Shown: in pieces, positions 2,427 through 41,102 of the stretch
Position numbering within the stretch: the stretch's first letter is position 1
Layout of the letters: every line of letters begins with the position of its first letter
IMG/VR virus record: IMGVR_UViG_3300043426_000266
Coordinates: 1 to 64,000 of that record
Length of the DNA stretch: 64,000 nt
Strand: one strand, 5' to 3'
DNA from: a virus
Made by a program: the position numbers and the translations under genes
Notes under the pieces: generated by a model
What the model saw: only the letters and a program-made list of their open reading frames with translations
Databases searched by the model: none
What the model was told of the DNA's origin: nothing

Positions 2427-2433
2427 TTTTATG
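2427..2433 (+). promoter_or_regulatory. TTTTATG element, candidate late promoter
   Basis: TTTTATGACC lies 25 bases before the start of the structural gene at 2458. The same element precedes several other structural genes (10904, 21416, 44641, 46117). It resembles the short TATG element reported for late promoters of phiKZ-type phages; assignment is inferred. Confidence 0.35.
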
Positions 2434-2457
2434 ACCTATATCCTGGAGTATAATAAA

Positions 2458-3945: not shown

Positions 3946-3956
3946 GGATTATTAAG

Positions 3957-5267
3957 ATGTCTATTTTAGAAAACGTTTTAGAACAAACCCCAGAACCATT
4001 TGTTTCAACCCCTAGTATGGGTCAACTTCTTCAAGAAGCAGACACCATGTATTCTCGTGTTACTGCAGGCGCTGATCTTGTTTCTAAGATCGAAAACGTA
4101 ACGGAACACTTAGAAAACATTAATGCTGAAATCGCTCAAGAAGGTGGTTTGTCTGACCTTTCTCGAGCAATGATTTCAAGAACACATAAACTTCTCACCG
4201 GTGTTGATGTGATGGGTAGTCGTGTAACTGCCTTAGAGGCTGCTGATGCCGATTCTGAGTTTAAGGATGACGTAGTACAGCAAATTCAAAATAACACGTT
4301 AAACGAGTTCCTAGCCGCGTTAAAAGAGAAGTTTTACGATAGCTGGGGTGACACTAAATCCTGGTATGGTAAAATTGTTTCAATTCGTGAAACAATCATT
4401 AAGAAAAATGCGGATACGTTAGAACGAGCGACTAAAGTAACAGGGGATCCTAAAACTTTAGAGTTTCAATTTAAAGATAATATTGACATTGACAATAACG
4501 GTAAAGTTTCTTTCCAGGAACTCCTTACTGGTATTGAAGCAATGCTAGGTTATACTGAAAAACGATTAAATGTTAAAGTTGATAAAAACTTTGAAGATTT
4601 CATTGTAGGCTGTCAGCGTGTGGTTGATGGCTATCGCGCCAAGGGTGAAGCCGATTACTCTGAGTTATTAAAGTATAAAGAACTTTATAACCCGCCTCCA
4701 GAAGTTTTAACCTCTGAATTAGAAAACAAATCCGTTAAAGGACAAGTGAGTGATTCTGATTCTGCGAAGTTAATCCAAACTCGTCGTTTCCCAGGTGCAA
4801 GTTATGTCATTATTTCATCCCCTGGAACTGAAGTAAAAGCAACTCCGGTTTCATTCATTGAAGATACCTGGGTGAAACTATATACAGAGAAGTCTACGGA
4901 TGAAAAAGATAGTGTTCGAGTAAGAACATTCTATCCAAATCAAATTGTTCACTTATCAACTGAGTTAGCCGCTGGGTTAGATAGCTTAGGTTACTTTGAT
5001 AAGTCTTGGGAACGTCGTGATAAGTTCATGACAAAAGTCTTTGGTAGTTTAGATAAAACGATTTCTTTAATTGGAGAGAAATTGACTGACTCATCTAAAG
5101 ACAGTAAGACGGATGAAGAACTAAGAGCAATCACCCGCGTGATGATTAAAGCAATTCAATTGGATAACACATTTAATTCAATGCTTATTAATCACGTAAT
5201 TAAGATCACTGCTCAATGTGTTGACCTTAATAATGCTTGTTTACTTCAATACAACTCTGACGTGTAA
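3957..5267 (+). CDS. Internal-head-like virion structural protein, paralogue C, with EF-hand loop
   Basis: A 436-residue protein. The start at 3957 follows AAGGAT; an upstream in-frame start at 3918 would overlap paralogue B. Family landmarks are T-K-S-W-Y-G-K near residue 133, R-R-F-P-G near 275 and E-R-R-D-K-F near 352. Residues 177-188 read DIDNNGKVSFQE, followed by Leu, which fits every position of the classical EF-hand calcium-binding loop. A predicted helix follows the loop. Neither paralogue A nor B has this loop. The protein could be a calcium-stabilised virion component; calcium binding is inferred from the motif only. Confidence 0.65.
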   Translation: MSILENVLEQTPEPFVSTPSMGQLLQEADTMYSRVTAGADLVSKIENVTEHLENINAEIAQEGGLSDLSRAMISRTHKLLTGVDVMGSRVTALEAADADSEFKDDVVQQIQNNTLNEFLAALKEKFYDSWGDTKSWYGKIVSIRETIIKKNADTLERATKVTGDPKTLEFQFKDNIDIDNNGKVSFQELLTGIEAMLGYTEKRLNVKVDKNFEDFIVGCQRVVDGYRAKGEADYSELLKYKELYNPPPEVLTSELENKSVKGQVSDSDSAKLIQTRRFPGASYVIISSPGTEVKATPVSFIEDTWVKLYTEKSTDEKDSVRVRTFYPNQIVHLSTELAAGLDSLGYFDKSWERRDKFMTKVFGSLDKTISLIGEKLTDSSKDSKTDEELRAITRVMIKAIQLDNTFNSMLINHVIKITAQCVDLNNACLLQYNSDV

Positions 5268-5405: not shown

Positions 5406-6287
5406 TTATTCCCCCGTATTGTACATAGTACCACAACTATGGATTGTGCGAGCACCTCCAAATTGTTGCTGAACATAATCAAACCATGTTGATTTATCAC
5501 TTGGTTCATCTTCCAAGCTAAAGGCATTCATTGGAACTAATTTAAGATTGATGCTGTGACGTTCAAACGCGTAATTTTCCTCAGGTTGCGTACCTGCACC
5601 ATAACCAGTAATTCGAATTTCTGTTCCCGGATTTAATATATCTTGAAAATCTAATCTTGGGGAATAAGTAAAATAGTCCCGCATATACAGTTGACGCATT
5701 AAATCGAAACCACTATATAAGAAAAGTTCCGTAACAATTTTTTCCGCAGAAGCATTAGCTTCAAAGAATATACGATCCTTTTGAACTTCCTCCCCGTCGA
5801 TTTCAAGAATGAAACTAAGTACTGAGCGATCTGTATTGAGGTTATTCAAGTTATTGGCTGACGGTATCCACCGTAACTCAGTTGGCATACACTCTTCAGC
5901 ATCACGATTATAATAACCTAAAGATTGATCTAGGGCTAGAACTTGACCAGATGAATAAATGATATCATCCTCAGTAAAATCAAATCCTAGGCTATTTAAC
6001 TCTTCGATAAGATCAAGAGTGTTATTACTTCCAAACTCTACATTCTCTAGGATCTCAGCAATATCTAAACGATTGTAGAATTGAATACGTTTTTCATAAC
6101 GTTCTTGTTCAGGTACGTTACTCCCTTTATCAATCTGTAGAGTAATTTTAGTATTATGTACTTTACCGTTATAAGGTTCAACAGATAATACTTCAGTTGC
6201 TTTACTACAACTCTTTGCAATGTCTTGTAAAGATTTATTGTGGGAATTAGTATTCTTTAGGTTACGTCTTAATTGAGGTAATAACAT
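5406..6287 (-). CDS. MLxPxLR-family protein, intact copy 1
   Basis: A 293-residue protein read on the minus strand. Its N-terminus (M-L-L-P-Q-L-R) and an N-T-K motif in a V-H-N-T-K-I-T-L context match the gene at 61358-62146. Both also share an F/I-Y-N-R segment and an S-L-G-Y-Y motif near residue 124. The C-terminal half appears beta-rich with few conserved residues. Broken relatives lie at 6400-6669 and 18393-18505. No known enzymatic motif was found. It diverges from the broken copy across a 112-base gap. The function of the family is unknown. Confidence 0.75.
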   Translation of the reverse strand: MLLPQLRRNLKNTNSHNKSLQDIAKSCSKATEVLSVEPYNGKVHNTKITLQIDKGSNVPEQERYEKRIQFYNRLDIAEILENVEFGSNNTLDLIEELNSLGFDFTEDDIIYSSGQVLALDQSLGYYNRDAEECMPTELRWIPSANNLNNLNTDRSVLSFILEIDGEEVQKDRIFFEANASAEKIVTELFLYSGFDLMRQLYMRDYFTYSPRLDFQDILNPGTEIRITGYGAGTQPEENYAFERHSINLKLVPMNAFSLEDEPSDKSTWFDYVQQQFGGARTIHSCGTMYNTGE

Positions 6288-18355: not shown

Positions 18356-18392
18356 ATCGAATTTTTATGACTACAACCCTAGGAGGAATCCA

Positions 18393-18505
18393 ATGCTACC
18401 TGAACTAAGACATCGCATAAAGTTCAGTATAAAGATGAGAATACACTCGTTGCTACAATCGATTCAGTAAATGATGGTGTAATTGAATATACACTTATAG
18501 ATTAA
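18393..18505 (+). pseudogene. Decayed MLxPxLR-family remnant
   Basis: A perfect AGGAGG site precedes ATG and M-L-P-E-L-R-H-R-I-K, which matches the N-terminus of the intact copies at 6287 and 62146. After this the frame is lost and ends at 18470. In the next frame the sequence reads D-E-N-T-L-V-A-T-I-D-S and N-D-G-V-I-E-Y-T-L-I-D to a stop at 18505, resembling the N-T-K-T-V-A-I-I-E segment of the copy at 61358. A deletion that also shifted the frame explains both halves. The intact start signals mean a 25-residue peptide could still be made. Confidence 0.65.
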
Positions 18506-18525
18506 AAAAGGGAGGGGGAATAAAT

Positions 18526-18651
18526 ATGTTTTTGATTACTGGAGGGTTAGGTAAGATTGGTACCATTCTTCGATCAAATCTTGAAGAGTTAATTGATGCT
18601 GATCCAACCTCGCTTGGTTATATGGGTGAGTTTACACCGGCTGAGGTTTAA
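18526..18651 (+). CDS. 41-residue ORF, probable further remnant of the MLxPxLR gene
   Basis: ATG behind GGAGGGGG. The C-terminal part reads T-S-L-G-Y-M-G-E-F, close to the S-L-G-Y-Y segment found near residue 124 of both intact family members, so it may be the next surviving piece of the decayed copy. The N-terminus (F-L-I-T-G-G-L-G-K-I-G) coincidentally resembles a Rossmann nucleotide-binding start but the protein is far too short for that fold. Confidence 0.4.
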   Translation: MFLITGGLGKIGTILRSNLEELIDADPTSLGYMGEFTPAEV

Positions 18652-18664
18652 GTAAAACGTGCAT

Positions 18665-18695
18665 AAACGGTTGGGGCTAACCCCAACCGTTTTCT
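18665..18695 (+). terminator. Palindromic terminator
   Basis: AAACGGTTGGGG/CCCCAACCGTTT stem followed by a short T tract, just before the tail-fibre cassette. Confidence 0.85.
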
Positions 18696-18718
18696 ATTAT
18701 TTCAATTGGAGACGAGAT

Positions 18719-18829
18719 ATGTCTAAAATAACCGATTTAACCTCAGATACACTTATAGAGGGTAATGAGTTAGTCTACGTTGTTGATGGTGATGCTGACA
18801 AGAAAGTAACACTTAATCAAGTTAAAGAA
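18719..18829 (+). repeat. Duplicated fibre-anchor DNA, copy 1
   Basis: About 110 bases match 21445-21555 with only a few substitutions, then similarity drops sharply. This marks the exchange boundary between a constant anchor and a variable distal part. Confidence 0.85.
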
Positions 18830-20866
18830 TTTGCTTCTGCTGGGTCAGTTTCAGCTAATATTGTTAGTTATGTTCCTGCTGATAATGCTGTGGTTGTTCC
18901 AAAAGTAACTCCGGAAGTAATTAATGCTGAAACAGCCTGGGATGGGCAATATTTAAGCGGCAATGGTCCTCTTACGACTGTTATGGCAAACGGTGGTTCG
19001 GTACCTTACGCTATAGCAGGTATTAAATTTCCTATTCCAGCCGGTGGTACTTTAGACGTTGACTTTACCGAAATGGGTCTAGCAGATGATGACGTTGTTA
19101 TTTTCTCTTTACTAAAACAAGACACCACTGTTGCTCAGTTTATGGACGCTGTTATGTCTGGTCAAATTGAGATGGCTAACCTAGGAGCATTTGGTACTAA
19201 TATTTTTTCGGCTACTCCAACCGGATTTAATTTAGGTACTTTTTATCAAATCCCAGATGTAGAACCAGGCGTTTCAGTGAGGCAGAAGCCACTCCCTATT
19301 CTCGGTAAAATAACTTTATACTTTTATAGTTATATTGAATATGCAGCTATTGCCTACGGGGTTACGGTTGAAGAATTACTCGCGATGGAGCCTGAATTTG
19401 GCATGTCGGTATATGCTAACCTTAAAGTAATGATGAGTTTACCAGAAGGTGGTGTGTTCCCGGATGATTTGGAGATGCTTTTACCATATACCAATGAAAT
19501 TACCACTATGCATATATTGGTTGGTAGCGTTGATGGCACTATGCCGTATGAGTTATCAGTAGGGGAAAGATTTTCTTTAGATGCATCTACCACCACGCAT
19601 ATTTTACCAGCTGATATTAAAGATGGAACTTTTTTAAAAATAGAAGAGCCTTGTGTCTTATTGGGTAAATCTCTTAAAGCTGGTGATTACTTTTTAGTTC
19701 ACAGTAATTTAAGTGAAGGTATGGTGGTTAGATTACCAACAACAATTCCAATTGGGGAAACCCCAGCACCAGCTGGTAGATTTCTAGGTTTGAGTTACAG
19801 TTACCCAGAAAACCCAATAGAGGGCGATTGGTTTATTCAACCAGCGACATCTCCAGATTCAGTTAACTTTAACACTATGCTTGTTTTTAATGATGGTATT
19901 TGGAAAGTAACTGGTTATGTTCCACAATCACAGGGCAATGTAGATAGATTTGCAGGAATTACTTATAATTCTTCGACTAATAGAATAGAAAGCACCAGCG
20001 GCACGCCAGTAGCAGGTTGGCTTGGGGCTAGCTACTCTGCCCCTATACTTTATTCGTCAACAGAAAGAAGTATTTATTACCATCGCGGCGAATTAGCTTT
20101 AAAAGCCTCGGAGGGTGGCTCCTGGACTGATCTATTACGTAGCGCTGTAAACATAAATTATCTTAGCACCCAATATGACAATTACCCAGTTACTATGGGT
20201 TCTGTGAAAGCTGGTTTGCTTGGTGCTAAGGATTGGAGCAATATAACTAGTAAGCCAGATTATGTTATACGGCAACCCACCAACGTGTTTACAATTTTTG
20301 ATAAATATGAATACTATGCTGACCAGAGTGGCATCGCCGCACCATTTATTTTACGCGGCGCAGCTATCGAGCAGCCGCAGTGGGGTGGTGGGTTAATATA
20401 TGGACAAATGGTGCCAGGGTCGGCATTAGCTTTCTATACGTCTGGTACTGGGCTTAATGGTAAAATAGCTTCAATTGAGGTGGCTATAGATTCACACCCA
20501 GATACTAATACTTTTGTGATAAATTTTAAAAACTCAACCAACGATGTTGGAAATTTGGTTATTAATAAACCCAATCCTACTACCATAGCTTTTGGTAACA
20601 ACACCATTACAAATTCAATCTCTTTAACAAGTATAGCTAAATATAAAATATGTATAGAATTCGGTAATACCGAAACTGGTAGTGAAGCTGGTATTAAAGT
20701 TTATCTTATTTGTAGAGATGGGCTCAAGGATATTAAACACATTTTGTTTGATGAGGTCACTAATATTTCCTTCCAGTACCCTACCCCTAGTAGTTTCCAC
20801 ATATCGGCTAGTGCTGGTAATGTTGATAACATTAGAATACATTCTGTTAAGTATCAAGGATCTTAA
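18719..20866 (+). CDS. Tail fibre or receptor-binding protein, cassette 1
   Basis: A 715-residue protein. ATG 18719 follows GGAGAC; an upstream in-frame GTG lies inside the terminator. Residues 1-37 form a short anchor (M-S-K-I-T-D-L-T-S-D-T-L-I-E-G-N-E-L) almost identical in DNA and protein to the fibre at 21445 and similar in design to the fibre at 37986, while the rest is different and beta-rich. A segment near residue 300-340 (V-L-L-G-K-S-L-K-A-G-D-Y) resembles the C-terminus of fibre 2, so the two are true paralogues and this one is longer. It is followed two bases later by a small partner gene. Receptor binding is inferred. Confidence 0.72.
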   Translation: MSKITDLTSDTLIEGNELVYVVDGDADKKVTLNQVKEFASAGSVSANIVSYVPADNAVVVPKVTPEVINAETAWDGQYLSGNGPLTTVMANGGSVPYAIAGIKFPIPAGGTLDVDFTEMGLADDDVVIFSLLKQDTTVAQFMDAVMSGQIEMANLGAFGTNIFSATPTGFNLGTFYQIPDVEPGVSVRQKPLPILGKITLYFYSYIEYAAIAYGVTVEELLAMEPEFGMSVYANLKVMMSLPEGGVFPDDLEMLLPYTNEITTMHILVGSVDGTMPYELSVGERFSLDASTTTHILPADIKDGTFLKIEEPCVLLGKSLKAGDYFLVHSNLSEGMVVRLPTTIPIGETPAPAGRFLGLSYSYPENPIEGDWFIQPATSPDSVNFNTMLVFNDGIWKVTGYVPQSQGNVDRFAGITYNSSTNRIESTSGTPVAGWLGASYSAPILYSSTERSIYYHRGELALKASEGGSWTDLLRSAVNINYLSTQYDNYPVTMGSVKAGLLGAKDWSNITSKPDYVIRQPTNVFTIFDKYEYYADQSGIAAPFILRGAAIEQPQWGGGLIYGQMVPGSALAFYTSGTGLNGKIASIEVAIDSHPDTNTFVINFKNSTNDVGNLVINKPNPTTIAFGNNTITNSISLTSIAKYKICIEFGNTETGSEAGIKVYLICRDGLKDIKHILFDEVTNISFQYPTPSSFHISASAGNVDNIRIHSVKYQGS

Positions 20867-20868
20867 TT

Positions 20869-21330
20869 ATGAGTAATATATTTAATTTTAACCCCACTCC
20901 ATCGGTACCTTTAGATTTTAAAGGTAAACCAGTTAATCAAATTACGGTTGAGCTTTTAAAAGCAGGTTTCATTCCTTTTAAAAAGGGTGCTGATTTTGTT
21001 TTAATAGGTGGTGATGCGGCAGCAGCTCAACTTATCATTGATGCATATGAGGTTCCTTTACCTAATCTAACCCCTAGACAGTTTGATTTACTTCTAGGGT
21101 ATACCGGGTTATACGATGCTATCCCAGCGGCTTTAGATCACATCAAAACCATTGATAATGATCTATACCTTCATTGTCGTAGTCAGCTTGATAAAGCCGC
21201 CTTCTTCGAGTGGGTAAAGGCAATTGCACTTTATACCCAATTGAAACCCATTCTTATAGTAATCAATCCAGCTTTAGATTATACCGATGAACAGTTAAAA
21301 ACTCATTGGCTAAATGTCTACACAATGTAA
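20869..21330 (+). CDS. Putative tail-fibre assembly/partner protein 1
   Basis: A 153-residue protein directly after fibre 1. It shares a L-T-P-R-Q-F-D-L-L-L-x-x-x-G-L-x-x-A-I signature and overall C-terminal half with the genes at 22546 and 41102, each of which also follows a fibre. This one-to-one pairing is typical of dedicated tail-fibre chaperones or caps. The N-terminal half differs between the three, probably because it contacts the specific fibre. Confidence 0.65.
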   Translation: MSNIFNFNPTPSVPLDFKGKPVNQITVELLKAGFIPFKKGADFVLIGGDAAAAQLIIDAYEVPLPNLTPRQFDLLLGYTGLYDAIPAALDHIKTIDNDLYLHCRSQLDKAAFFEWVKAIALYTQLKPILIVINPALDYTDEQLKTHWLNVYTM

Positions 21331-21343
21331 AACCAGCATAACT

Positions 21344-21376
21344 AAATAGCGTCCCCTAGGGGACGCTATTTTTCTA
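21344..21376 (+). terminator. Palindromic terminator
   Basis: AAATAGCGTCCCC/GGGGACGCTATTT followed by T residues; identical stem core to 2001. Confidence 0.9.
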
Positions 21377-21384
21377 GGGCTTTT

Positions 21385-21405
21385 GCCCCTTCTACTTTTA
21401 TTTCG
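21385..21405. repeat. Inverted copy of the 10673-10693 terminator region
   Basis: These 21 bases are the exact reverse complement of 10673-10693, which there form the end of a coding region and the left arm of its terminator. The copy sits between two fibre cassettes. Confidence 0.85.
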
Positions 21406-21415
21406 CATTTAAGTA

Positions 21416-21423
21416 TTTTTATG
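21416..21423 (+). promoter_or_regulatory. TTTTTATG element, candidate late promoter
   Basis: TTTTTATGAA lies 22 bases before the fibre 2 start, with TAGGAT between them. Confidence 0.35.
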
Positions 21424-21444
21424 AAAATTATGTAGGATAAAGAT

Positions 21445-21555
21445 ATGTCTAAAGTAACCGATTTAACCTCAGATACACTTATAGAGGGTAATGAGTTAAT
21501 CTACGTTGTTGATGGTGATGCTGACAAGAAAGTAACACTTAATCAAATTAAAGCC
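21445..21555 (+). repeat. Duplicated fibre-anchor DNA, copy 2
   Basis: Near-identical to 18719-18829; see the entry there. Confidence 0.85.
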
Positions 21556-22536
21556 TTTACTGGTGGTGGGTCAGGTGGTAGCTCAGGTGGTGGAATCAAC
21601 GTTATTGAATATGACCCATCTTTGCATGAAGTTATAACCGATACAGTAGTTGGTACTGACTTTGAGCCGACAAGACCAAATATGGTTGACGACATACCTA
21701 CGTCTAGTTGGAATCCGACAACAGGCGCAATGGGTGTTGCAAACGCACCACAGACTGTAGCGTTACCAAACAACCAAGCTAGTTATGTTGGGTTGCGCGT
21801 GACCCGACCGTTGGTCGGTATGCGTGGTTCATTCACGATAGACGCTAGTTTGTGCGAAGATGCGTGGGGCTTTGCGTTGTTACGGTACCAACCTCTTGGT
21901 GGTTTCCCAATAGATTTGGGGTTATACCTAGCAAATCAACACTACAATACGGTGGAAGACCCAAGTTTAGCGCAGCCGAATACGTTTGGTACATTTTTAA
22001 AAGAAGATGATACTTACGAAAGACGATCTTGGGTTTCAGATATATTTACAGACGCGTATGGAGCAAGTAGGGACAGTTATTCGACTAAACCACAGGGCGT
22101 ATATACGTTCATTGTCGGCGGGATAGTAGATTTCTACATGGTAGCGGCGGGATTCACTTATGAACAAGCTGTAGATTTTTTCACAGACAATTTCCCTAAT
22201 GATGTTGAGTCAATACTGGCACGTACCATAGTGTTCAACGTAGAGCTTGGATTTGGACTAGAGTTGAAAGCCAACACACCATATTTACACTTCTTTATGA
22301 ACGCCTACCATAAAGCATCACAGACAGGTCTACACCTACTTAACCCGACATCACAACTCACTATCACTTATGATTTAGAAGAAGTTGGTAATGCACCACC
22401 TACGGAAGCAGTCGATGGAGATTTCCTACACCTACTTGGTAATGCAAAACTACTCGGTAAGGACTTAGCAAGTGGGGATTTTGTTCAGCTATACGATAAT
22501 AAAACCAAGTTTATTGTTCATAGCAATCAGCCATAG
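21445..22536 (+). CDS. Tail fibre or receptor-binding protein, cassette 2
   Basis: A 363-residue protein with the same 37-residue anchor as fibre 1, then a Gly/Ser linker (G-G-G-S-G-G-S-S-G-G-G) at about 38-49 and a distinct distal domain. The DNA after the anchor is richer in GC and uses other codons than its neighbours, suggesting that the distal part was acquired separately. The C-terminus (K-L-L-G-K-D-L-A-S-G-D-F) matches an internal part of fibre 1. It is followed by its own partner gene at 22546. Confidence 0.7.
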   Translation: MSKVTDLTSDTLIEGNELIYVVDGDADKKVTLNQIKAFTGGGSGGSSGGGINVIEYDPSLHEVITDTVVGTDFEPTRPNMVDDIPTSSWNPTTGAMGVANAPQTVALPNNQASYVGLRVTRPLVGMRGSFTIDASLCEDAWGFALLRYQPLGGFPIDLGLYLANQHYNTVEDPSLAQPNTFGTFLKEDDTYERRSWVSDIFTDAYGASRDSYSTKPQGVYTFIVGGIVDFYMVAAGFTYEQAVDFFTDNFPNDVESILARTIVFNVELGFGLELKANTPYLHFFMNAYHKASQTGLHLLNPTSQLTITYDLEEVGNAPPTEAVDGDFLHLLGNAKLLGKDLASGDFVQLYDNKTKFIVHSNQP

Positions 22537-22545
22537 GAGTAACTC

Positions 22546-22968
22546 ATGCTTAATATTTATGGTTTAGATCAGCAACAAGTAGTAAATGAGTTGCTTAAAA
22601 ACAAGATTCTTGCAGCAGTTCATAATAATCAAATTATCATTATGAACGGCAAGGTAGAACAAGCACAGTCTGTCATTGGTCGTATGTACTACAGTATGCC
22701 AAATCTACTTCCTACACAGTTTTATTTCTTGCTTGCTAAGAGTGGACTTGATACTGCAATCGATGCGTTGCTTACTTCGTTGCAAAGTGAAGATTTAGAT
22801 AAGTATGCAACTTACAAAGCTTACTTAAATGGTGCTCGTTTTTACGAGTTTGATAAAGCAATTGCAATGCTTACTCAAGCAGGGCCGATTATTGCGCAAG
22901 CATATCCTGGTTTAGATTTATCTATTCCTACCTTAAAATCACTGTGGTTACAAGCTGCGAAGTTTTAA
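22546..22968 (+). CDS. Putative tail-fibre assembly/partner protein 2
   Basis: A 140-residue protein nine bases after fibre 2, with N-L-L-P-T-Q-F-x-F-L-L-A-K-S-G-L-D-T-A-I, the signature shared with 20869 and 41102, and a conserved K-A-I-A-x-x-T-Q helix. Likely chaperone or cap of fibre 2. It ends at a two-way terminator facing the helicase gene. Confidence 0.65.
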   Translation: MLNIYGLDQQQVVNELLKNKILAAVHNNQIIIMNGKVEQAQSVIGRMYYSMPNLLPTQFYFLLAKSGLDTAIDALLTSLQSEDLDKYATYKAYLNGARFYEFDKAIAMLTQAGPIIAQAYPGLDLSIPTLKSLWLQAAKF

Positions 22969-25260: not shown

Positions 25261-27537
25261 ATGTTAAAAGTAGGTAATCGTCAAGCCAATATTATTGGAC
25301 AAGTTTTAGCCAGCCTCACCGCTGATGCTCGTTCAGAAGGTTCTTTAGCCGCGATGTCTAATGCATCTGGTTTAACCACCCGTGGTATGATTGCATTAGA
25401 ATCAGCTGATGAAGCAACAACTCAACAAATCCGTACTGCATTTAAAACAAGTCGTGTTTCAATTGAAGCATTGATGAAAAAACATTATCAACTTGCATTA
25501 GAAAGTGAAGACGGTCAAACCATCGAAGGCAGTGAAGAAGCGGGTGTTCAAGACGGTCGCGAAGCGATGTTTACACAAGCGCAATTACAAGCTGGTGCAA
25601 TCACTGCTGCTGCATTAGAAAACCCTTCTGAATATGCTGCATATGCAACTAAAGTGAACGTTAGTGGTGCTGCAGATTCTGACCCATTGTCTTCTGGTGC
25701 TTTTACTTCTGAAGTGATTGGTGAGCAGGCATTGGCCCAAGAAGCATTCGACGCCGCTAACCTTCGTGAATTCGAAGCATTCTCAATGGTGTATAACGTT
25801 TTTGCTGCGCGCCAATCGCCTTTGCAAGAAATGTTCTATCCAACAATTGCAATGACCCCGGATCAAAACGGTGTTCAAATCTTTACTCGCGTACAGGTTT
25901 ACTTCAACAATGCTCGCCACAAAAATGATGGTACTATCGAAGGTTTTGATCGTATCCCTCTTTACCAGGCTGCAAATGATCCAACAATCTTGTTGAATGA
26001 AATCACTCGTGTTTATCCAGTTTATGACGATAGCGATGTTGCCGTAGCTGCAAACTTTGCTGACCCACTTGATGTTGCTCCAACAGCTGTTACTTTAGAT
26101 GGTTTAACGTTTGAAACTGCACCTTTGCGCGTTGGTATTGAGCAAGGTTTACTTGGTCTATCTCAAGCTTCAATCGCTGGTTTCACTGGTGATATGGGTT
26201 CAGAAGATCAAATTGCGAACGGTGCACGTATCCAAGACATCTTCATTAAAGTAACAAACTCAGCGGCTGCAACTTCAATCATCAAATTCAACCTTCGCAA
26301 CTTAGGACGTACTGCGTTCTTAGAAGCTCAAGAAGGTTTGGATATGGATGTTCTTTTGAACTTCGTTAACAAGCAAATGCCTTTAACTGGTCAAACAAAA
26401 GACGTTACTGGTGCTCCTGCTGCTGCATTAGCGTTGCTTCGTCAACCAGCGTATGAGAACCACATTGCACACTTCGGTATCAACGTTACTGCGAACTTAA
26501 ACTTAGAAACCGGTTTAGTTACAGTTAACCATGCAATTGGTCAAACTCAGAAATACACACTTCGTGTAAATGCTGATGGTAATGCTGTTCGTGAACAAGA
26601 TGCTGCGGTTACAACTGCAATTCGTAACTCTATTACGAAAATCGAATTGTTGTACTGGACTCCAGACATGAACCGTACGAACTACAACTTACGTCAACGT
26701 GGTCCGTTATGTGGTACACTTGAGAAGCATGAGCGTTTTATTATTCGCTTAAACGCTCCAGTTGCTGCAATGGCGCCTTTGACTGAAACTCGTACGACTT
26801 CTGACTTTGTTGCACCAATCACTGCAGTGCGTACTCGTAACGACAACAATGCAATCACTCACTTGTTCGCTAACCACGAAGCATTAATGGCGCATACTGC
26901 ATCTTACGACAATTCACTTCCACGTCCAGAAATTAAATCTCTTGGTCGTCATGTGATGAATCCATGGGCAGATCATATCGAAATCAACATGATGGATTTG
27001 ATTACTTCAACACGTAGTAAAAACGTTGCTGAAGATTTCCGTTATGCATTCGGTAACGTGTTCCGTGAAGCGATCTACCGCGGTCTTCGTAAATCACTTT
27101 ACGAATCTTCTTTACGTTTACAAACTGGTGTTGATGGTGCTAAACCTACAATCATTGTTGGTACTAACCCAGTACTTGCAAAACACTTGAACGTTAAAGA
27201 TACTGCTGGTTGGTTGGGTGAAGGTTTCCCTTACGACGTTGTGATTGAATCTCATGAAGATCGTCGTCTTGGTGGTTATGAAGATAACGTTCATGAAGTC
27301 TTTGTTGGTTTGTCAATCCCTGGTGCACAGTGGAGCCCACACACTAACGGTCACTTCTTGTATGTGCCTGAATTGGTCACTACAATTAACACTGTTCGTA
27401 ATGGTTCTAACCAACGTGAAATCATTGTAATGTCTCGTTGTGAACACGTCAACCTTTGCCCATGGGCATTGCGTTTCACATTGAGCGGTGTTACAGAGTC
27501 GTTCACTACCAAACTTCCAATTGCATTCACTTTCTAA
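25261..27537 (+). CDS. Putative major capsid protein
   Basis: A 758-residue protein with a GGAG site, its own terminator and no other gene in the unit. Its codon use is notably uniform, with many GGT, GCT, CGT, AAC and GTT codons, as expected of a very highly expressed product. Length matches capsid proteins of jumbo phages (about 750 residues). The N-terminal 150 or so residues are Ala/Glu/Gln-rich and helical and could be a delta-like region removed during head maturation, followed by a mixed beta-rich body. No sequence motif alone proves the assignment; fold prediction should show an HK97 core. Confidence 0.65.
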   Translation: MLKVGNRQANIIGQVLASLTADARSEGSLAAMSNASGLTTRGMIALESADEATTQQIRTAFKTSRVSIEALMKKHYQLALESEDGQTIEGSEEAGVQDGREAMFTQAQLQAGAITAAALENPSEYAAYATKVNVSGAADSDPLSSGAFTSEVIGEQALAQEAFDAANLREFEAFSMVYNVFAARQSPLQEMFYPTIAMTPDQNGVQIFTRVQVYFNNARHKNDGTIEGFDRIPLYQAANDPTILLNEITRVYPVYDDSDVAVAANFADPLDVAPTAVTLDGLTFETAPLRVGIEQGLLGLSQASIAGFTGDMGSEDQIANGARIQDIFIKVTNSAAATSIIKFNLRNLGRTAFLEAQEGLDMDVLLNFVNKQMPLTGQTKDVTGAPAAALALLRQPAYENHIAHFGINVTANLNLETGLVTVNHAIGQTQKYTLRVNADGNAVREQDAAVTTAIRNSITKIELLYWTPDMNRTNYNLRQRGPLCGTLEKHERFIIRLNAPVAAMAPLTETRTTSDFVAPITAVRTRNDNNAITHLFANHEALMAHTASYDNSLPRPEIKSLGRHVMNPWADHIEINMMDLITSTRSKNVAEDFRYAFGNVFREAIYRGLRKSLYESSLRLQTGVDGAKPTIIVGTNPVLAKHLNVKDTAGWLGEGFPYDVVIESHEDRRLGGYEDNVHEVFVGLSIPGAQWSPHTNGHFLYVPELVTTINTVRNGSNQREIIVMSRCEHVNLCPWALRFTLSGVTESFTTKLPIAFTF

Positions 27538-32896: not shown

Positions 32897-35740
32897 CTAT
32901 TTCTTTCTATTAGGTCGATGGTCAGCTGATTCAAAACCAAACTCACCGTCATCACCTCCACCAAACAAGTCTTCACCACCATCACCCTGTGGCTCAGCAG
33001 CAGGAGTTTCTTTTCCACCCCCTTCACCACCATCATCTGTTGATTCTGGTGCAGGTTCTGGAGTAGGCGAGCTTGTATCGTTATCACCACCTTCACTACC
33101 GGCAGAATTCATATCCCGTTCATTCAAATGTTCAATTTTTGCATCAGTGCTATAACGAATTTTAGACATTACTGCTTCATGTTCTAAAGCATAGTCAACG
33201 GTTCTTTTTACCAACGTCTCGGCTTCAGTTAAAGGATCCACTCGATCTTCTTGGTCTAGGTCGCCATACATGAAATTGAAATGGTCTGGAATCAAATTGT
33301 TATTTTGAAGAATACCACGCATGTACGATGATTTCCAAGAAGCTTTCAAGAACTCAAGTTTACCACCTACCTTTTCCCCAACCTCATCAGATGCAAACAT
33401 AGGATCATTAAAATGATATTCAATGACCTTGTCAATAAACTGCTCATGAGAGTCTAGGTTTTCCATTTGCGCTTTTAGTTTAGTTGTATCTGGTTTCGGT
33501 AAAGAAGTTTCGATGGATTCAATAAACTCCTCAATGAGATCCGCTGTAGACGTTTTAGTTTTGGTTAATGGACCATCGTTTGCTTTACGGGCTTTTTCAA
33601 CAACTCGAACTAATTCCTGAATAATGATTGCTGAGTTTAAAGAGAATGATTGAATGAACTTAGTTAAGTTCTTACAAAACATTTTCTGTTCAACTGTCGC
33701 TTGTTGTGCGCGAAGCATGTGTCCAGTAATATAAGTTTGAGCAAACTCAACTTCTTGACTCATATCAACAATCTCAGGAGATACCCCTGACAACATAATT
33801 AAACGACGGTTAATGCCATCCATGTAATCGTTGTCAATTAAAGCAGCTTCTCGATTTAGGTATTCAATATCAACTGAAGTTCCAGGGAAGTTACCATTGC
33901 CATTTTCATACATGAAATGAAAACCACTATTTAGAATATGGTTTAATTGATCTTGGGTATTAGATGAGGAAAATAAAGCATTCGCGTGTTGAGATCTAAC
34001 GATATGTTGTTGGATCTTTTCACTGGTATCAAAAGCATCTAACTCATCATCATCAAAAGCAATTGTCACTTTCTTATGTTGAATAGCATTATTGATCGCT
34101 GCCAATGCATTGGCAACCTGTACAGTTGACGCAATAACTGCCAAGTTTTTGTGTTTACTAAGTTTACTTTCCCCTAGACCGTATTCGTTATACTCAAATG
34201 CAATATAGGTTAAAAGCTCAGTTGGGATAATAAGAAATTGTGTCTGCATTCCCGCAAGAGAACGCTTCCACATCATCTCAGCAAAAACCCCAGTTAACTT
34301 AACATCCAATTCTAAACCTGAATATAAACCATTCTTTAAGCGTTCCTTTAAGTCGGCTTCCAAGAAGGAGTTAAATAAACGTTGAGAAGCATTTTGAACC
34401 ACACCTTGTCTAAGATTACTTAACCCATCGACAGAAGCATCCCCGAGCTGTGATAGCATCTGAGTACCCAAGATACCAGATGAAGTCTGTAAACCTAGAT
34501 CAACTGAATCAGGATGATATTCATCTTCCTCTGGTGCAGTCAGCGGGTTCCCTGCTGAATCCAATGGAATCACATACAGAAGATGATTCTCTGGCAAACC
34601 TGGAGGTGTGATTGGAACTGCTGAATCATAAGGGAGTTCGATAACAAGGGGGTGTCCAAAGTTATCGTAAATATCTCTGGACTTCACATTTACGACTTCA
34701 GTTAAACTAAAATGACGGTTAGGATAAACCAACTCACCACCATTTTCTAATTGTAAACGTTTTGAACTCGCGGGATTTTGTTTAGTTTCAGTATTACCAT
34801 CTTCCATTGCCGCTAAACGGTGAAGAGGGCTATATCGTTTTGCCACGCTGCGGCGAGCAGCGGCTTGAGTAATCAACGGTAGTTTAAACACCTCAACGTT
34901 ATCGTGAATGAAAACGTTTTCCAATGCTTGAATAATTTCACTACCTTTAATGTTTTCATTTGCTTTTAATTTACTTATTTCCTCATTACTAATAACGACA
35001 CGATTTGAGTACAAACCAGACTGATCATTATCGACAGATTCCATTTTTAATGTTTGAAAAACAGAACGTTTACTTGTACCTTTTAATTTACTATGACGGC
35101 CTGGGCCAAGAAGTCCAGTTGGTTTATAAAAATTGTTTTCAAAATGTGTATCGGAATCGTATGATTCAAGCGCTGTTTTCTTTTTACTTTTATCTGATTC
35201 ATTGATGATATCATCAATTTCAGTTAAAGGTACAATTGCTAAAGGGACTGCGCCTGCTAAAAATTTTGCTCGATAAATCCAGTTTTTTAAACGTTCATCA
35301 ATTTTATATTCTTCTTTTGCCCATTTCTTAATTACGTCAAGCATTTGAGACTTGATTGAATCCACTTCAATTGACACTGGACAAATAATGTTTAAGTCAG
35401 GTTCTGAAATATCATTGGGCGATAACAATCCAGCAATGTAGATGTCAATCCCCATGCAAAGCTCAGGAGAACTTTTTAAGATATTGCGTGCATCTCTAAC
35501 CGAATTAGATGCTGCTTTAAATATTTTAGAAATATCAGCATCTTCGGGAATTGGGCTACCATCCCTGGTTGTTCTACCTGCCTGTTGTTGAACATTGGGC
35601 TGAACAAGGTTATTCGCAATCCAAAGAAGATTTCGATCTGGTGAATTGGACGCTAAAGAAGAAAGTTTTTTATTGTCTTTCTCTGATAAGTAACTCGCAG
35701 CAGTTAACCCTAAACGGTTTTTAAATAATTTATCACTCAT
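32897..35740 (-). CDS. Putative portal vertex protein
   Basis: A 947-residue protein read on the minus strand. ATG 35740 with GGAG is used; the longer reading overlaps the divergent gene. Length, single copy next to head and tail genes, and a central region (G-N-F-P-G-T-S-V-D-I-E-Y-L with later L-S-G-V-S-P-E-I-V-D) are reminiscent of portal proteins of large phages. The C-terminal 70 residues are a Gly/Glu/Asp/Pro-rich tail. The portal would form the ring through which DNA enters the head. The assignment rests on general resemblance and needs structural confirmation. Confidence 0.5.
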   Translation of the reverse strand: MSDKLFKNRLGLTAASYLSEKDNKKLSSLASNSPDRNLLWIANNLVQPNVQQQAGRTTRDGSPIPEDADISKIFKAASNSVRDARNILKSSPELCMGIDIYIAGLLSPNDISEPDLNIICPVSIEVDSIKSQMLDVIKKWAKEEYKIDERLKNWIYRAKFLAGAVPLAIVPLTEIDDIINESDKSKKKTALESYDSDTHFENNFYKPTGLLGPGRHSKLKGTSKRSVFQTLKMESVDNDQSGLYSNRVVISNEEISKLKANENIKGSEIIQALENVFIHDNVEVFKLPLITQAAARRSVAKRYSPLHRLAAMEDGNTETKQNPASSKRLQLENGGELVYPNRHFSLTEVVNVKSRDIYDNFGHPLVIELPYDSAVPITPPGLPENHLLYVIPLDSAGNPLTAPEEDEYHPDSVDLGLQTSSGILGTQMLSQLGDASVDGLSNLRQGVVQNASQRLFNSFLEADLKERLKNGLYSGLELDVKLTGVFAEMMWKRSLAGMQTQFLIIPTELLTYIAFEYNEYGLGESKLSKHKNLAVIASTVQVANALAAINNAIQHKKVTIAFDDDELDAFDTSEKIQQHIVRSQHANALFSSSNTQDQLNHILNSGFHFMYENGNGNFPGTSVDIEYLNREAALIDNDYMDGINRRLIMLSGVSPEIVDMSQEVEFAQTYITGHMLRAQQATVEQKMFCKNLTKFIQSFSLNSAIIIQELVRVVEKARKANDGPLTKTKTSTADLIEEFIESIETSLPKPDTTKLKAQMENLDSHEQFIDKVIEYHFNDPMFASDEVGEKVGGKLEFLKASWKSSYMRGILQNNNLIPDHFNFMYGDLDQEDRVDPLTEAETLVKRTVDYALEHEAVMSKIRYSTDAKIEHLNERDMNSAGSEGGDNDTSSPTPEPAPESTDDGGEGGGKETPAAEPQGDGGEDLFGGGDDGEFGFESADHRPNRKK

Positions 35741-35763
35741 TTGAATACTCCAGAGGGGGTAAT

Positions 35764-37989
35764 ATGTCTCAGAAACTTCTTGAAGTCTACAAGACTTCGA
35801 CAATCGCATTGGCGCACAGTGTTGTGGTAAATCACCCTCATGTTGGAATGTCGATCAACAAGATGCTAAAAGAAAAAAAGTATGGTGTCTATACCAATGA
35901 ACATAACCGTTCAACTTGGAAAATGTACTTAAATATGGCTGGGTTATATCATCAATATGATCATGATCAAATTCATAAAATTAACGTGGAGCTTGGTTTG
36001 GGTCTAACGGATCCAACAATTAATCGTTCTAAAATGATTATTCGAGTTGCAGGTGATAGCGGTCAACTTGAACGAGAGTTTACGGTTGAAAATATTTCGT
36101 CTGAAACAGCAGATGTAAGTATCTCTAAAGAGTATCAGCCTGGAAGTCGTGCATATAATGAATTGGTTGGTGTGTACTCTGAGTTTGAGAATTTAATTCA
36201 GGGAATTTTACATCCGATTCCATTGGACGTGTCGACGAACGCTGATGAGTATGAAGTACTCCATGCTGGTGGATATTATAAAACTCGTTTAGATACTTTG
36301 AGTTCTCAATATGCGTATATTAAAAGTCAACGTTTGGTTGATCAACAAGCAACGCTTATTGAAGATTGGGAAGAAAGTTTAGTTGGTGATATAAATCACT
36401 TCACTAAAAACTTCTTTAGGCAACATTATAATCCAGTCTACGGTGAGTTTAATGATTTATACGTAGCACAAAGTTTAGGGTTATATTATTTGAATCTTCC
36501 AACTTTGATTATGCAATTGCGTTTAAATAAAGTTAAAACAAGAGAGACACATTCAACACATGTTCAATTATACCTTGATTCATTTTCCGGGTTAGGGCAA
36601 TATATCAGCTATCTAACTCGTGATCAAGTCATGTTTTTATATCGTAATCTAGATTGGCTAATTGCCAACTTTGGTAAGCAAAAGACATTTGATATACTGT
36701 TAGATGTGTTAATTTATTCCCGACGCATCCCAGCAATCTTTTATAACAGCATTCATCGTTTAGAGAATATGCCTGGACAACTTGAACCAGATACGCGGTT
36801 TACAAAAGAGTATGGTTTGGTTCGACCAATTGGTGATGGTAAAACAACTTTAACACCAGAGGAAATGGTGGAGATGATTATTAATGTTGCAAAACATAAT
36901 AGTCAAAATGTTGACTACCAACTTTATCGAATAGAAGATTTGTCTTTAAAATCCAATAGCAATTGGGTTAAAACCAAACTTGTACATACCAAGTACACAG
37001 ATTGGGGGATGCAAGTAAACGGCAGTTACGAGGAGTTCTTATTTTGTAACTGGGTTTACTCTGCAATGAAAGGGGAGTTTACAGGGTTGGTAACGGTCTT
37101 TACGCCTTATACAAATAACAGTATTCAGCTAACCATTAAGAATGCTTTAATTATGTTCTTGTTTAGTTATGCTAAAGGTTATTTAGGTAAAAACCCAAAT
37201 CTAATCAAATCACTATATGTTCACAACATCCCTAAAACAATTGCTGAAATTGACGGTGGTGAGAATTTACGTGGCTATATTAGTGATTCACGTTTTACAG
37301 AACAAGAATATTTGTTTTTAAGAAGCAAGTCCCCAGATAGCCGCCGTTACAATTCAACTTCTCAATTTTTAGCAGAGATTGAACAGCAATGGCGCAACTA
37401 TGTTGAAAGAACCTATGCTGTATATAAAGGCGTAGGAATTCGCGCGAATGGGCAGATGGATATGGTCGCAGCTTTAATGTACCATAATGCTAAGATTGAT
37501 ATTGATCTTGGGATGTCTTATCAACAATGGTTGGCAAAATTTGGAATTCGCTCTGAAGGAGAAGAGGTTGAATACTACCAACTTCTTTGTAATAGTGTTT
37601 ATGAAGCAGTGTTATTTCCAGCGGGAACGAAAAAAGATCGAATGGAAAAAACCCATCGAGCTTTGATTAATATTCTTCGTTTCTTCTCGAGTTACTCTAT
37701 TCAGTTTATTACCGAAACAAACTCATCTGAAGTTGTGAATGTAGGTACACGTGATGTGCGTTTAGAACACATCTCAACAAGCTTTACTTCCAAAGATGAT
37801 ATTTTTATTGCAAGATACCCGACTTACTTTACAAAGGCGAAAGCTGTTCAGGAAAGTAGTTTCAACGGACATCAGTTTAGTTACTGGAGTAGCGATGAGC
37901 GGGATAATCATTTGACTCAAGAACAGCTAAGATACCTAATTCTAACTGAACAGAATGATGGAATCCTTATTAAAGGAGGAGACGTATGA
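35764..37989 (+). CDS. Large virion structural protein upstream of the tail fibre
   Basis: A 741-residue protein starting 23 bases from the divergent putative portal gene, behind GAGGGGG. Helical and beta-mixed, Tyr-rich, no enzymatic motif. Its last codons overlap the start of the tail-fibre gene (37986) by four bases, so the two are translated together. A baseplate or fibre-attachment role fits this coupling. Confidence 0.6.
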   Translation: MSQKLLEVYKTSTIALAHSVVVNHPHVGMSINKMLKEKKYGVYTNEHNRSTWKMYLNMAGLYHQYDHDQIHKINVELGLGLTDPTINRSKMIIRVAGDSGQLEREFTVENISSETADVSISKEYQPGSRAYNELVGVYSEFENLIQGILHPIPLDVSTNADEYEVLHAGGYYKTRLDTLSSQYAYIKSQRLVDQQATLIEDWEESLVGDINHFTKNFFRQHYNPVYGEFNDLYVAQSLGLYYLNLPTLIMQLRLNKVKTRETHSTHVQLYLDSFSGLGQYISYLTRDQVMFLYRNLDWLIANFGKQKTFDILLDVLIYSRRIPAIFYNSIHRLENMPGQLEPDTRFTKEYGLVRPIGDGKTTLTPEEMVEMIINVAKHNSQNVDYQLYRIEDLSLKSNSNWVKTKLVHTKYTDWGMQVNGSYEEFLFCNWVYSAMKGEFTGLVTVFTPYTNNSIQLTIKNALIMFLFSYAKGYLGKNPNLIKSLYVHNIPKTIAEIDGGENLRGYISDSRFTEQEYLFLRSKSPDSRRYNSTSQFLAEIEQQWRNYVERTYAVYKGVGIRANGQMDMVAALMYHNAKIDIDLGMSYQQWLAKFGIRSEGEEVEYYQLLCNSVYEAVLFPAGTKKDRMEKTHRALINILRFFSSYSIQFITETNSSEVVNVGTRDVRLEHISTSFTSKDDIFIARYPTYFTKAKAVQESSFNGHQFSYWSSDERDNHLTQEQLRYLILTEQNDGILIKGGDV

Positions 37990-40900
37990 GTAATAAACCG
38001 ATATCAAGCCTGGAGGTTCGTACCCAAGACTTGACAGGCGCAGACCTGATGTTGATCTCCCAGTTTACTGCGGCTGGTTGGAGATCTGCACAAGTAACTT
38101 TAGAAGACTTTTTTACTGAAATGTTTCAGCCTGGTTCTTCTGCTGGGCAGATCATTGTGAACATGCAAGCTGAGATTAATCAGTTAGATTCACGAATGGA
38201 TATGCATGAGCATCCAGAGCTCAATACCGCTGATCCAAATTATGATCCACACTTTGGGTTCTTCTTACGGTTAGTAACCAAAGTTGCATCGAATTCAGGA
38301 TTAGTTGGTGATGGTCGAGCGGCAACACCACTGGCTTTAGATTACACTTATCTAAATACAGTTTATGCTCGTTCGAGTACAATTGTTGATAACCTTACAT
38401 CAACTTCTGCAACAACTCCATTGTCAGCAAATATGGGTCGAGAATTAAATGTTGCTAAAACCAATATTTCTGAAACTCGTCAAAACTTCGGTGAAAACAT
38501 TGTTTCGTTGATTGCAACAACGGGTTATAATTTCAACAATGCTTTGCCTGGTGATTACGTCTATCTAAATAAGCAAACCGCAACCGCAGCCAACTCACCA
38601 CCATTTGAGTACTCCACCACGTTTACTGAATGTTCGATTAATACCAGCGGTCAGCGTTTTCAGATTGCCCGAGATTATCAAACCGGACAATTTGCTGTGC
38701 GTGCGTTACAAAGTTCCACTTGGAGTGCCTGGCGTAAACAGTTGATGGAAGGTGATGTGGGTGGTGGCAGTACCGTAGGTTCTGCTGATAAATTGACCAC
38801 GCCGCGTCGTATTAACAACGTGTTTTTTGACGGTACTCAAGATATTACCATTTATACTGATAAATTGAGCACGCCGCGTCGTATTAACAACGTGTTTTTT
38901 GACGGTACTCAAGATATTACCATTTCTGCTGCTAAATTGACCACGCCGCGTCGTATTAACAATGTTTTATTCGATGGTACGCAGGACATTACCATTTCTG
39001 CTGATAAATTGAGCACGCCGCGTCGTATTAACAATGTTTTATTCGATGGTACGCAGGACATTACCATTTATGCTGATCTTCCTTATAAGGGCGCAATCTC
39101 ACCTTCTGTGATTGATGCTACTGTTACCCCAGGGTATTATGGCATCAGCAATAACCCAGAAGGTTTCTTTGAGGTAAGAGTTGTTAATGATTTAGTATTA
39201 CAATACTATCATACAACGTATTACGCCACACCCCAAGGAGAGGCTTACCCGACTCGACACCTAAGCCGGATGAAGAAAGGGGTGGATGCTTGGACTGCTT
39301 GGCAAAGTGTTGGTCCAAAAATTGAATTTGCTTCAACTGGTGGCGTGGGCGTAGTTCAGTTAAATAACAGTTTAACTTCAACTGCTACCGACCAAGCTCT
39401 AACCGCGGCAATGGGTAAAGTATTAAAAGATACGAAAGTTGACATTACTGCATTAAGAGATGCGTTTGGTAATCGCCCAATAGACTTGATTGTTCCTGCG
39501 GGTTATAACTATAACAACATCATGCCGGGTGAATTTGTTTTTCATAACGACTCAACCCTCGGTACCAATGTCGTTAACCCACCCCCATTCAACACCTGTT
39601 CTGTCTATTGCGAACGTAGCTATACTGGGGCGGGTGAACGTACCGTTACTGCGCGGGACTATGCAACAGGTCGAATTGCAACTCGCGGTCGTAATAACAA
39701 TAGCTGGAGTGCTTGGCAAACACATTTGGTTGCGGTAGATGTCGCAAATGCAATTACGACGCATAAAGCTGAAACAGACCCACATCCCCAGTATGTGACT
39801 ATTGCTGAATTGGCTGCATCAACTACAGATGGTTTAACTGAACACGTATTGGATTTAAGTACCGCTGGTTTTGATGCCAATACTTATTATCCAGTTACAG
39901 TTGCAATTGCGAACAAAGGTCGTTGTAGTTTTGAAATTGATACCCCTTTGTCGTATGCAGCTGCCCCTTGGTCAACCCATGCTGGTGGTACAATTTCTGT
40001 AATGGCGAAGTGGAGCGAGTACTCGGCCGCGTGGGGTGCGAATAATATTGATAGAACAATCGATGTTGCAGGGTTTGCGCACTGTGTTAATAGTCCTGTA
40101 ATTTCAATTACTCAATTAACGAACTCATCAACTGTTGTGTTCTTCTTACGCGGTAACACTAAATATCGCGTACGGATGACGAAAACATTGGTTCCAGTGA
40201 TTCGTACTGCGTCGTATAGTATTAGTAGTCAAACTGTTGCGCCTAAGGTATTTGATAATAGTGCACCAATCAGTATTATGAATGATAAGATTGGACAATC
40301 TCATTTAACTGACCCCGATCCTCATCCTCAGTATCTATTGGCTAGCACCGGCTCTACTCAGTATTATCCTAAAACTGGTGGTACAGTCACGGGTGATATT
40401 GTTGCCGGTACACCAGCTGCGCCTAGAGCTGTTTATGCCTACGGCAACATTACTTCTGAAAAAACAGTAACGGGTCTTGATATAGTTGCTATAAATTCCT
40501 TGAAGTCTGTGGGCCGGGTAGAGGCGCGGTATTTAACCTTGCAAAATGCGGTCTACCCTAGTAAATTACAAATTACTCCAGGTCTCAACACAGTATCCTA
40601 TTCCGTGGTCGACCTATCCCCTCTTGAACAGGGTGAGCACGTGTTTTGGAACCCAATTAGGTCTACTTGGGGGTATGGGGATCTTTTTAGCGAACAAGCG
40701 GTTGATCTTCGTTGGGATGTGTCGAATACAACCACGGTCATCGGTGAGGTGGTGGCGAGTTATGTTGTCTTTAACTCTAAAGTGGATTGGTATGATGGTT
40801 CAGAGCAGCGTAATGTAAGATACTGTCAAGTTTCTGTTGATTATATTTTGTGGAATAATCCAGGCGAAACTAGTTCTAAATTCGTTTTCCCTCTTACTTT

Positions 40901-41102
40901 TGCGCTACCGCCAATTATTGTGGCCACTCGAAAAACCTGGGATAAAGATAGCGCAGGAACGATGAATGATGCTGATGGAGGTGTGCTTGTTCAATTTGCT
41001 AATACTGCGTATTGTTACATTTCTTGCCAGGTATTCAATCCTAATTCACAAGGCGGGTTACGCGGCTTTACATTACAAATCTCTGGATGGGTGTATGCAT
41101 AA
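37986..41102 (+). CDS. Large tail fibre, cassette 3
   Basis: A 1038-residue protein. The N-terminal anchor (I-S-S-L-E-V-R-T-Q-D-L-T-G-A-D-L-M-L-I-S-Q) resembles the fibre 1 and 2 anchors in design. Residues 269-364 are four tandem 24-residue units with the phage-fibre motif P-R-R-I-N-N-V-x-F-D-G-T-Q-D-I-T-I. Two related knob-like regions (about 174-254 and 499-581) contain G-Y-N-x-N-N and W-S-A-W; D-P-H-P-Q-Y motifs occur twice. The C-terminus probably forms the receptor-binding tip. A partner gene follows with a one-base overlap. Confidence 0.82.
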   Translation: MSNKPISSLEVRTQDLTGADLMLISQFTAAGWRSAQVTLEDFFTEMFQPGSSAGQIIVNMQAEINQLDSRMDMHEHPELNTADPNYDPHFGFFLRLVTKVASNSGLVGDGRAATPLALDYTYLNTVYARSSTIVDNLTSTSATTPLSANMGRELNVAKTNISETRQNFGENIVSLIATTGYNFNNALPGDYVYLNKQTATAANSPPFEYSTTFTECSINTSGQRFQIARDYQTGQFAVRALQSSTWSAWRKQLMEGDVGGGSTVGSADKLTTPRRINNVFFDGTQDITIYTDKLSTPRRINNVFFDGTQDITISAAKLTTPRRINNVLFDGTQDITISADKLSTPRRINNVLFDGTQDITIYADLPYKGAISPSVIDATVTPGYYGISNNPEGFFEVRVVNDLVLQYYHTTYYATPQGEAYPTRHLSRMKKGVDAWTAWQSVGPKIEFASTGGVGVVQLNNSLTSTATDQALTAAMGKVLKDTKVDITALRDAFGNRPIDLIVPAGYNYNNIMPGEFVFHNDSTLGTNVVNPPPFNTCSVYCERSYTGAGERTVTARDYATGRIATRGRNNNSWSAWQTHLVAVDVANAITTHKAETDPHPQYVTIAELAASTTDGLTEHVLDLSTAGFDANTYYPVTVAIANKGRCSFEIDTPLSYAAAPWSTHAGGTISVMAKWSEYSAAWGANNIDRTIDVAGFAHCVNSPVISITQLTNSSTVVFFLRGNTKYRVRMTKTLVPVIRTASYSISSQTVAPKVFDNSAPISIMNDKIGQSHLTDPDPHPQYLLASTGSTQYYPKTGGTVTGDIVAGTPAAPRAVYAYGNITSEKTVTGLDIVAINSLKSVGRVEARYLTLQNAVYPSKLQITPGLNTVSYSVVDLSPLEQGEHVFWNPIRSTWGYGDLFSEQAVDLRWDVSNTTTVIGEVVASYVVFNSKVDWYDGSEQRNVRYCQVSVDYILWNNPGETSSKFVFPLTFALPPIIVATRKTWDKDSAGTMNDADGGVLVQFANTAYCYISCQVFNPNSQGGLRGFTLQISGWVYA
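38790..39077 (+). repeat. Four tandem 72-base in-frame repeats
   Basis: Each unit encodes 24 residues. Units 1 and 2 share one DNA version of the I-N-N-V-F-F block and units 3 and 4 another (V-L-F), while the T-T-P versus S-T-P start alternates. Such mosaic patterns indicate duplication and gene conversion. Confidence 0.9.

Follow-up and report, generated by a model that had tools for sequence, protein, structure and literature searches.

Two putative tail fibre-chaperone gene pairs of a distant phiKZ-like jumbo phage share an N-terminal anchor that appears to have been recently copied

The locus described here lies within a window of 64,000 nucleotides, corresponding to bases 1-64000 of a 205,063-bp IMG/VR virus record, and carries two consecutive gene pairs on the + strand, each composed of a putative tail fibre gene and a small gene for a putative fibre chaperone. 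The first pair consists of F1 (18719..20866, 715 aa), assigned from its ORF, an anchor in common with F2 and a mid module like that of F2 and F4, another fibre of this genome, and C1 (20869..21330, 153 aa), assigned from its similarity to C2 and from the C-terminal domain of a fibre-adjacent protein family. The second pair consists of the short putative fibre F2 (21445..22536, 363 aa), assigned from its ORF and its alignment with F1, and C2 (22546..22968, 140 aa), assigned from its ORF, its similarity to C1 and a structure model. All four ORFs are intact, and the coordinates given for them in the initial annotation were exact, as was the statement that each fibre is followed by its own partner, with C1 starting 2 bp past F1 and C2 9 bp past F2. 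Terminator-like hairpins are found on the + strand just 5' of F1 (18665..18692; 12-bp stem, fold z = -4.9), in the gap between C1 and F2, where the hairpin is followed by a T run (21344..21371; 12-bp stem, fold z = -5.0), and 3' of C2 (22973..23006; 15-bp stem). Since such hairpins are located before, between and after the two pairs, each fibre-partner pair looks like a transcription unit of its own.

F1 can be divided into an anchor (residues 1-~43), a mid module (~46-335) and a distal part (336-715) that has no counterpart in F2, while F2 is composed of anchor and mid module and stops where the distal part of F1 starts. Profile searches of Pfam and PHROG returned no family match naming either protein as a fibre, and a PA14 match in F1 (E=0.02) was discarded as it fell under the Pfam cut-off. 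The fibre label of F1 and F2 is thus a putative one, resting on their architecture, a weak link to F4 and the presence of a partner. The structure model of F2 was unusable, with a pLDDT of 32, and too poor for a fold search.

Elsewhere in the window, the MCP (25261-27537) matched 200 phage records, the best of which were phiKZ-type at 25-29% identity, and matches to phiKZ proteins were obtained for the portal (32897-35809), a gp128 homologue (35764-37989) and a gp139-like protein (42592-43497), with a gene order around gp128 like that of relatives. Judged by the MCP, portal and gp128 homologues and by this gene order, the phage is a distant phiKZ-like jumbo phage. We can only guess at its host, which may be Acinetobacter-like, because the only cellular matches found for C3, the partner protein of a third fibre, were all from Acinetobacter. 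A GroEL-like chaperonin also appears to be phage-encoded (genome positions 132639-134282), as judged by eye from its N-terminal sequence. Furthermore, three consecutive long ORFs at window positions 68-1828, 2431-3945 and 3918-5267 have middle segments that look alike by eye (W..TK.WY motif) and are possibly paralogous.

F1 and F2 begin with a direct repeat of 134 bp (copy 1, 18715..18848; copy 2, 21441..21574; both on the + strand) that is 93% identical (E = 6e-54 within the genome) and occurs in just these two copies across the 205-kb record. The copies differ by nine mismatches and contain exact runs of 44 and 47 bp. On the left, the identity starts 4 nt 5' of the ATG; on the right, the boundary is sharp and located near codon 43, with F1/F2 identities per 15-codon block of 98, 98, 76 and 44%, followed by 20-62%, so that identity has dropped from 98% to 44% by codon 46. 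The ~43-aa anchor matched nothing in the databases searched. The initial annotation had described the two genes as nearly identical at their 5' ends and then diverging; the repeat bears out the first part, but what follows it is a distant homology that reaches F1 residue ~330. Past the anchor this similarity is weak (shuffle P ~ 4e-4) and terminates in a C-terminal island (F1 316-330) in which 67% of the amino acids are identical (E = 0.01-0.02); F2 ends here, and F1 continues for ~385 residues more. The mid module is moreover weakly detectable in F4 (P = 1.5e-4). Since the homology between F1 and F2 persists up to the end of F2, and F4 matches the mid module, F2 is by alignment a short version of the F1 anchor and mid module rather than a fibre whose tip is unrelated. 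The proposed architecture of a constant anchor, a variable distal part and an own partner fits the locus, and an N-terminal segment common to both proteins followed by divergent distal parts is what is seen in anchor-type modular receptor-binding proteins.

In a codon test, identical residues with more than one possible codon were scored for use of the same codon, and the counts were compared with the expectation from codon usage. The two anchors used the same codon in 35 of 35 cases, compared to 15.1 expected (log10 P about -14), whereas the same codon was found in 20 of 67 cases in the rest of the aligned fibre (26.7 expected) and in 24 of 46 cases in C1/C2 (18.9 expected). Synonymous sites in the fibre bodies and the partners are therefore close to saturated, but no such divergence is seen in the anchor, whose first 35 codons contain three isolated differences, all of them valine/isoleucine exchanges. 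Since bodies and partners are synonymously saturated and the anchor is not, the simplest reading of these sequences would be that the anchor DNA is a recent copy inside an old paralogous pair. The suggestion that the anchor offers a recombination point is strengthened by this test, which shows recent exchange or copying of DNA confined to the anchor, meaning that recombination has made use of this segment on at least one occasion.

A further fibre-partner pair had been proposed at 37986-41590. Here, F3 (37986..41102, +) is a 1038-aa tail fibre with phage fibre repeats (PF22337, E=1e-11; phrog_1833, E=1.5e-27), and C3 (41087..41590, +), a putative fibre chaperone of 167 aa (phrog_14311, E=3e-21), has a start overlapping the end of F3. 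The layout and the C-terminal domain of the partner (P = 1.2e-6) agree with those of the first two pairs, but the anchor does not (P = 0.12 compared to F1/F2). Instead, the F3 anchor resembles only that of F4 (P = 5e-4), a 1330-aa fibre located at genome positions 137255-141244 that has no partner-like neighbour gene on its own strand. A common anchor for F1-F4 was thus not supported, F3 and F4 being the only alike ones, and iterated profile searches did not join the F1/F2 and F3/F4 anchor groups. F3 and C3 are positioned between the gp128 and gp139-like genes, where many relatives have gp126/127-like virion proteins, and therefore represent an insertion relative to those relatives. Within F3, window positions 38708-39067 contain 72-nt in-frame repeats encoding TPRRINNVxFDGTQDI, some of which are 87-90% identical in DNA, suggesting a recent repeat expansion.

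At least five phiKZ gp126/gp127-like virion proteins (phrog_1037-like) are encoded in the genome, including two in the window (5409-6287 and 61358-62146, both -) and others at ~78061-78576 (-), ~81755-83191 (+) and 141251-141745 (-), the last of which is directly before F4. One relative (L023) has two phrog_1037-like copies, each directly before a long fibre-like gene, and another (L034) has six to seven copies in tandem; the placement next to fibres suggests an adaptor-fibre pairing. Directly 5' of F1, window positions 18392-18650 may hold a broken remnant of the same gp126/gp127-like family, as a start-like and an end-like piece in different frames give weak matches, in the right order, to the start and the end of that family's profile (E=0.009 and 4e-4, searched among three sequences).

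Aligned end to end, the partners C1 and C2 show 35% identity (E=1e-22), with 11/49 identical residues (22%) in the N-terminal part and 36/90 (40%) in the C-terminal part (Fisher P = 0.04). Of the common C-terminal signature and the distinct N-termini that had been ascribed to the partners, the former was recovered as a profile match, but the latter were not, since the two proteins align along their whole length and the N-terminal part is merely less conserved. The C-terminal domain of C1/C2 could be linked to the family formed by C3 and phrog_14311-like proteins (profile-profile P = 1.2e-6, probability 91%); C1 alone matched phrog_14311 at E=0.02 and was the second-best ORF in the genome for the profile of this family (E=8e-4). 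C1, C2 and C3 hence all carry the C-terminal LTxRQF...MW domain of the family, C1 and C2 by profile. In 5/5 phages examined, the family member starts ~10 bp or less past an annotated tail fibre or tail collar gene. Of three Acinetobacter loci, two have the family member after a long ORF that shares segments with F3, and no long upstream ORF was seen at the third. In an AlphaFold2 model of C2 (mean pLDDT 78, pTM 0.56), a small N-terminal alpha/beta part is followed by five C-terminal helices.

Nothing usable came from fold searches that started from the C2 model or from sequence searches of the PDB, and no homology to Mu Tfa or to Pam3 gp25 emerged. Likewise, C1, C2 and C3 had no Caudo_TAP PF02413 or DUF4376 match in Pfam (E<=1), and phrog_188 'tail fiber assembly' matched C3 at just E=0.024. 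The position of the partner genes, on the other hand, is that of Tfa-type genes, with C1 and C2 set 2 and 9 bp apart from their fibre genes and C3 overlapping its own. Because they share this gene position and the C-terminal domain with the fibre-adjacent family, C1 and C2 are most likely Tfa-like fibre chaperones; since they show no homology to Mu Tfa or Pam3 gp25 and do not match the Pfam models, the claim is that they would work like Tfa, not that they are Tfa proteins. C1 and C2 are homologous even though the C-termini of F1 and F2 that they would cap are not, which a strict matching of tip and partner would not predict.

We consider it probable, with moderate confidence, that the locus holds two old paralogous fibre-chaperone units between which the anchor DNA was recently copied, with shared docking and with partners acting in the manner of Tfa. 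The ~43-residue N-terminus would dock F1 and F2 on the same virion site, the rest of each fibre would form the shaft and the receptor-binding part, and each partner, paired one to one with its fibre, would help that fibre to trimerise or fold. The copying may have occurred by gene conversion limited to the sole stretch still similar enough to recombine, or a tip-plus-chaperone cassette may have been attached to a duplicate of the anchor already present. By inference, the two units could affect host range. More tentatively, repeated gene conversion of the ~130-bp anchor might keep two diverged fibres on one docking site by concerted evolution and at the same time provide a landing site for cassettes, a scenario to which we would give rather limited credence.

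Among the alternatives, a true cassette swap, in which the fibre unit was duplicated and the tip and partner of one copy were then replaced at the anchor by a foreign homologous cassette, is a sub-version of this explanation, as opposed to conversion between two resident genes, and we regard it as conceivable but doubtful. It accounts for the same data as conversion, and the GC3 of the F2 body (0.365) is above that of the F1 body (0.27-0.29) and the anchors (0.22-0.24), although this is only a hint of import. Moreover, F3/C3 are linked to fibre-partner pairs in Acinetobacter genomes, making cassette import plausible in this phage lineage. Against a swap, C1 and C2 have an ordinary GC content (0.36-0.37) and similar GC3, and a donor or relative was not found in any collection searched: at the limits applied, searches of phage and plasmid sequences, of IMG/VR and GTDB genome contigs and of 49 phiKZ-like records gave no relatives of F1, F2, C1 or C2. 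These searches had the phage's own genome as sole positive control and, where pattern-based, reached close relatives only. One match at E=0.01 was discarded as it was inside a capsid-protein ORF.

The Mu G segment contains invertible fibre cassettes, each variant having a matched assembly partner. F1-C1 and F2-C2 differ from this arrangement in that both units point the same way on the + strand, each has its own start codon and terminator, and the anchors are direct repeats; no inversion arrangement was seen. The initial annotation had spoken of a built-in system for broadening or changing host range, which is overstated for two same-orientation paralogous units without an invertible arrangement and a third pair lacking their anchor.

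C1 and C2 could also be virion adhesin tips or unrelated small structural proteins and not chaperones. T2-like phages, in which the adhesin is an unrelated gp38 encoded downstream of the fibre (PMC13030884), offer a precedent, and the direct family matches of C1 and C2 are weak; however, the profile link of both proteins to the fibre-adjacent family, as well as the prediction that C2 is mostly helical, unlike the glycine-rich adhesin tips that have been described (PMC9608196), render this reading unlikely. It seems improbable as well that the identity of the anchors stems from purifying selection at the DNA or RNA level, such as on a translation-initiation, regulatory or DNA element, and not from recent copying. 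While the identity does begin within 4 nt of the start codon, at the 5' end of both genes, the upstream regions are unrelated and differ completely, ribosome-binding sites included, and RNA folding of the anchors showed nothing unusual (z = +0.9 and +0.6), thus not indicating an RNA-level constraint. In addition, zero synonymous differences in 35 codons, with valine/isoleucine exchanges as the changes, is the opposite of what protein-level constraint alone would leave. Finally, although the record is an IMG/VR contig and the repeat contains exact runs, an assembly artefact joining two related phage variants at a short repeat of a metagenomic contig is very unlikely, since the repeat is short, has unique flanks on both copies and nine mismatches, and both units are complete with partner and terminators.

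A conserved N-terminal anchor combined with exchangeable distal parts is standard in phage receptor-binding proteins (PMC6872550, PMC10253068), and conserved DNA beside the receptor-binding domain has been put forward as a hotspot of recombination, with homology also among the receptor-binding proteins of one phage group (PMC10408124). As in F1 and F2, the receptor-binding proteins of Klebsiella podoviruses, the Kuttervirus/CBA120 tailspikes and those of RaK2 have a conserved N-terminal attachment segment and divergent distal parts, occur several per genome and contain conserved DNA as a proposed recombination site (PMC6872550, PMC10408124, PMC10253068). In contrast to these, the F1/F2 anchor is just ~43 aa, the recency of its copying comes from a within-genome synonymous-site test, and neither F1 nor F2 matched a depolymerase or a T4 gp10-like branching domain. 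Within phiKZ, gp131/133/134/135 are likewise tandem diverged paralogous structural proteins (22-27% identical), to which F1 and F2 showed no match.

With regard to the partners, Pam3 gp25, the structure of which is solved, and Mu Tfa grip the fibre by a variable N-terminal domain and trimerise by a conserved helical domain (PMC9608196), and distant phages have been shown to share fibre and chaperone as one module (PMC10579305). Such Tfa modules (Mu Tfa, Pam3 gp24/gp25, and the Alteromonas V22/A5 fibre with its DUF4376 chaperone) likewise have a small gene right after the fibre and keep fibre and partner as a unit (PMC9608196, PMC10579305), and the layout predicted for C2, a variable N-terminal part and a more conserved helical C-terminal part, would resemble theirs. 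In contrast to these modules, C1, C2 and C3 had no match among the tail-fibre-assembly and DUF4376 models of Pfam, and C1 and C2 are paralogues in one genome. A literature search combining gene conversion and tail fibres found nothing relevant, which is weak evidence given its incomplete coverage.

In conclusion, the fixed-anchor, exchangeable-tip design is well documented in other phages, and F1 and F2 appear to be a clean new example of it; to the known cases they add an orphan sequence family as well as a signature of anchor copying in the synonymous sites of a single genome. The phrog_14311-like proteins, an unnamed fibre-adjacent family, are hereby tied to a probable chaperone role. Moreover, zero synonymous change in an anchor as compared to saturation elsewhere can separate recent copying from old shared ancestry in any multi-fibre phage.
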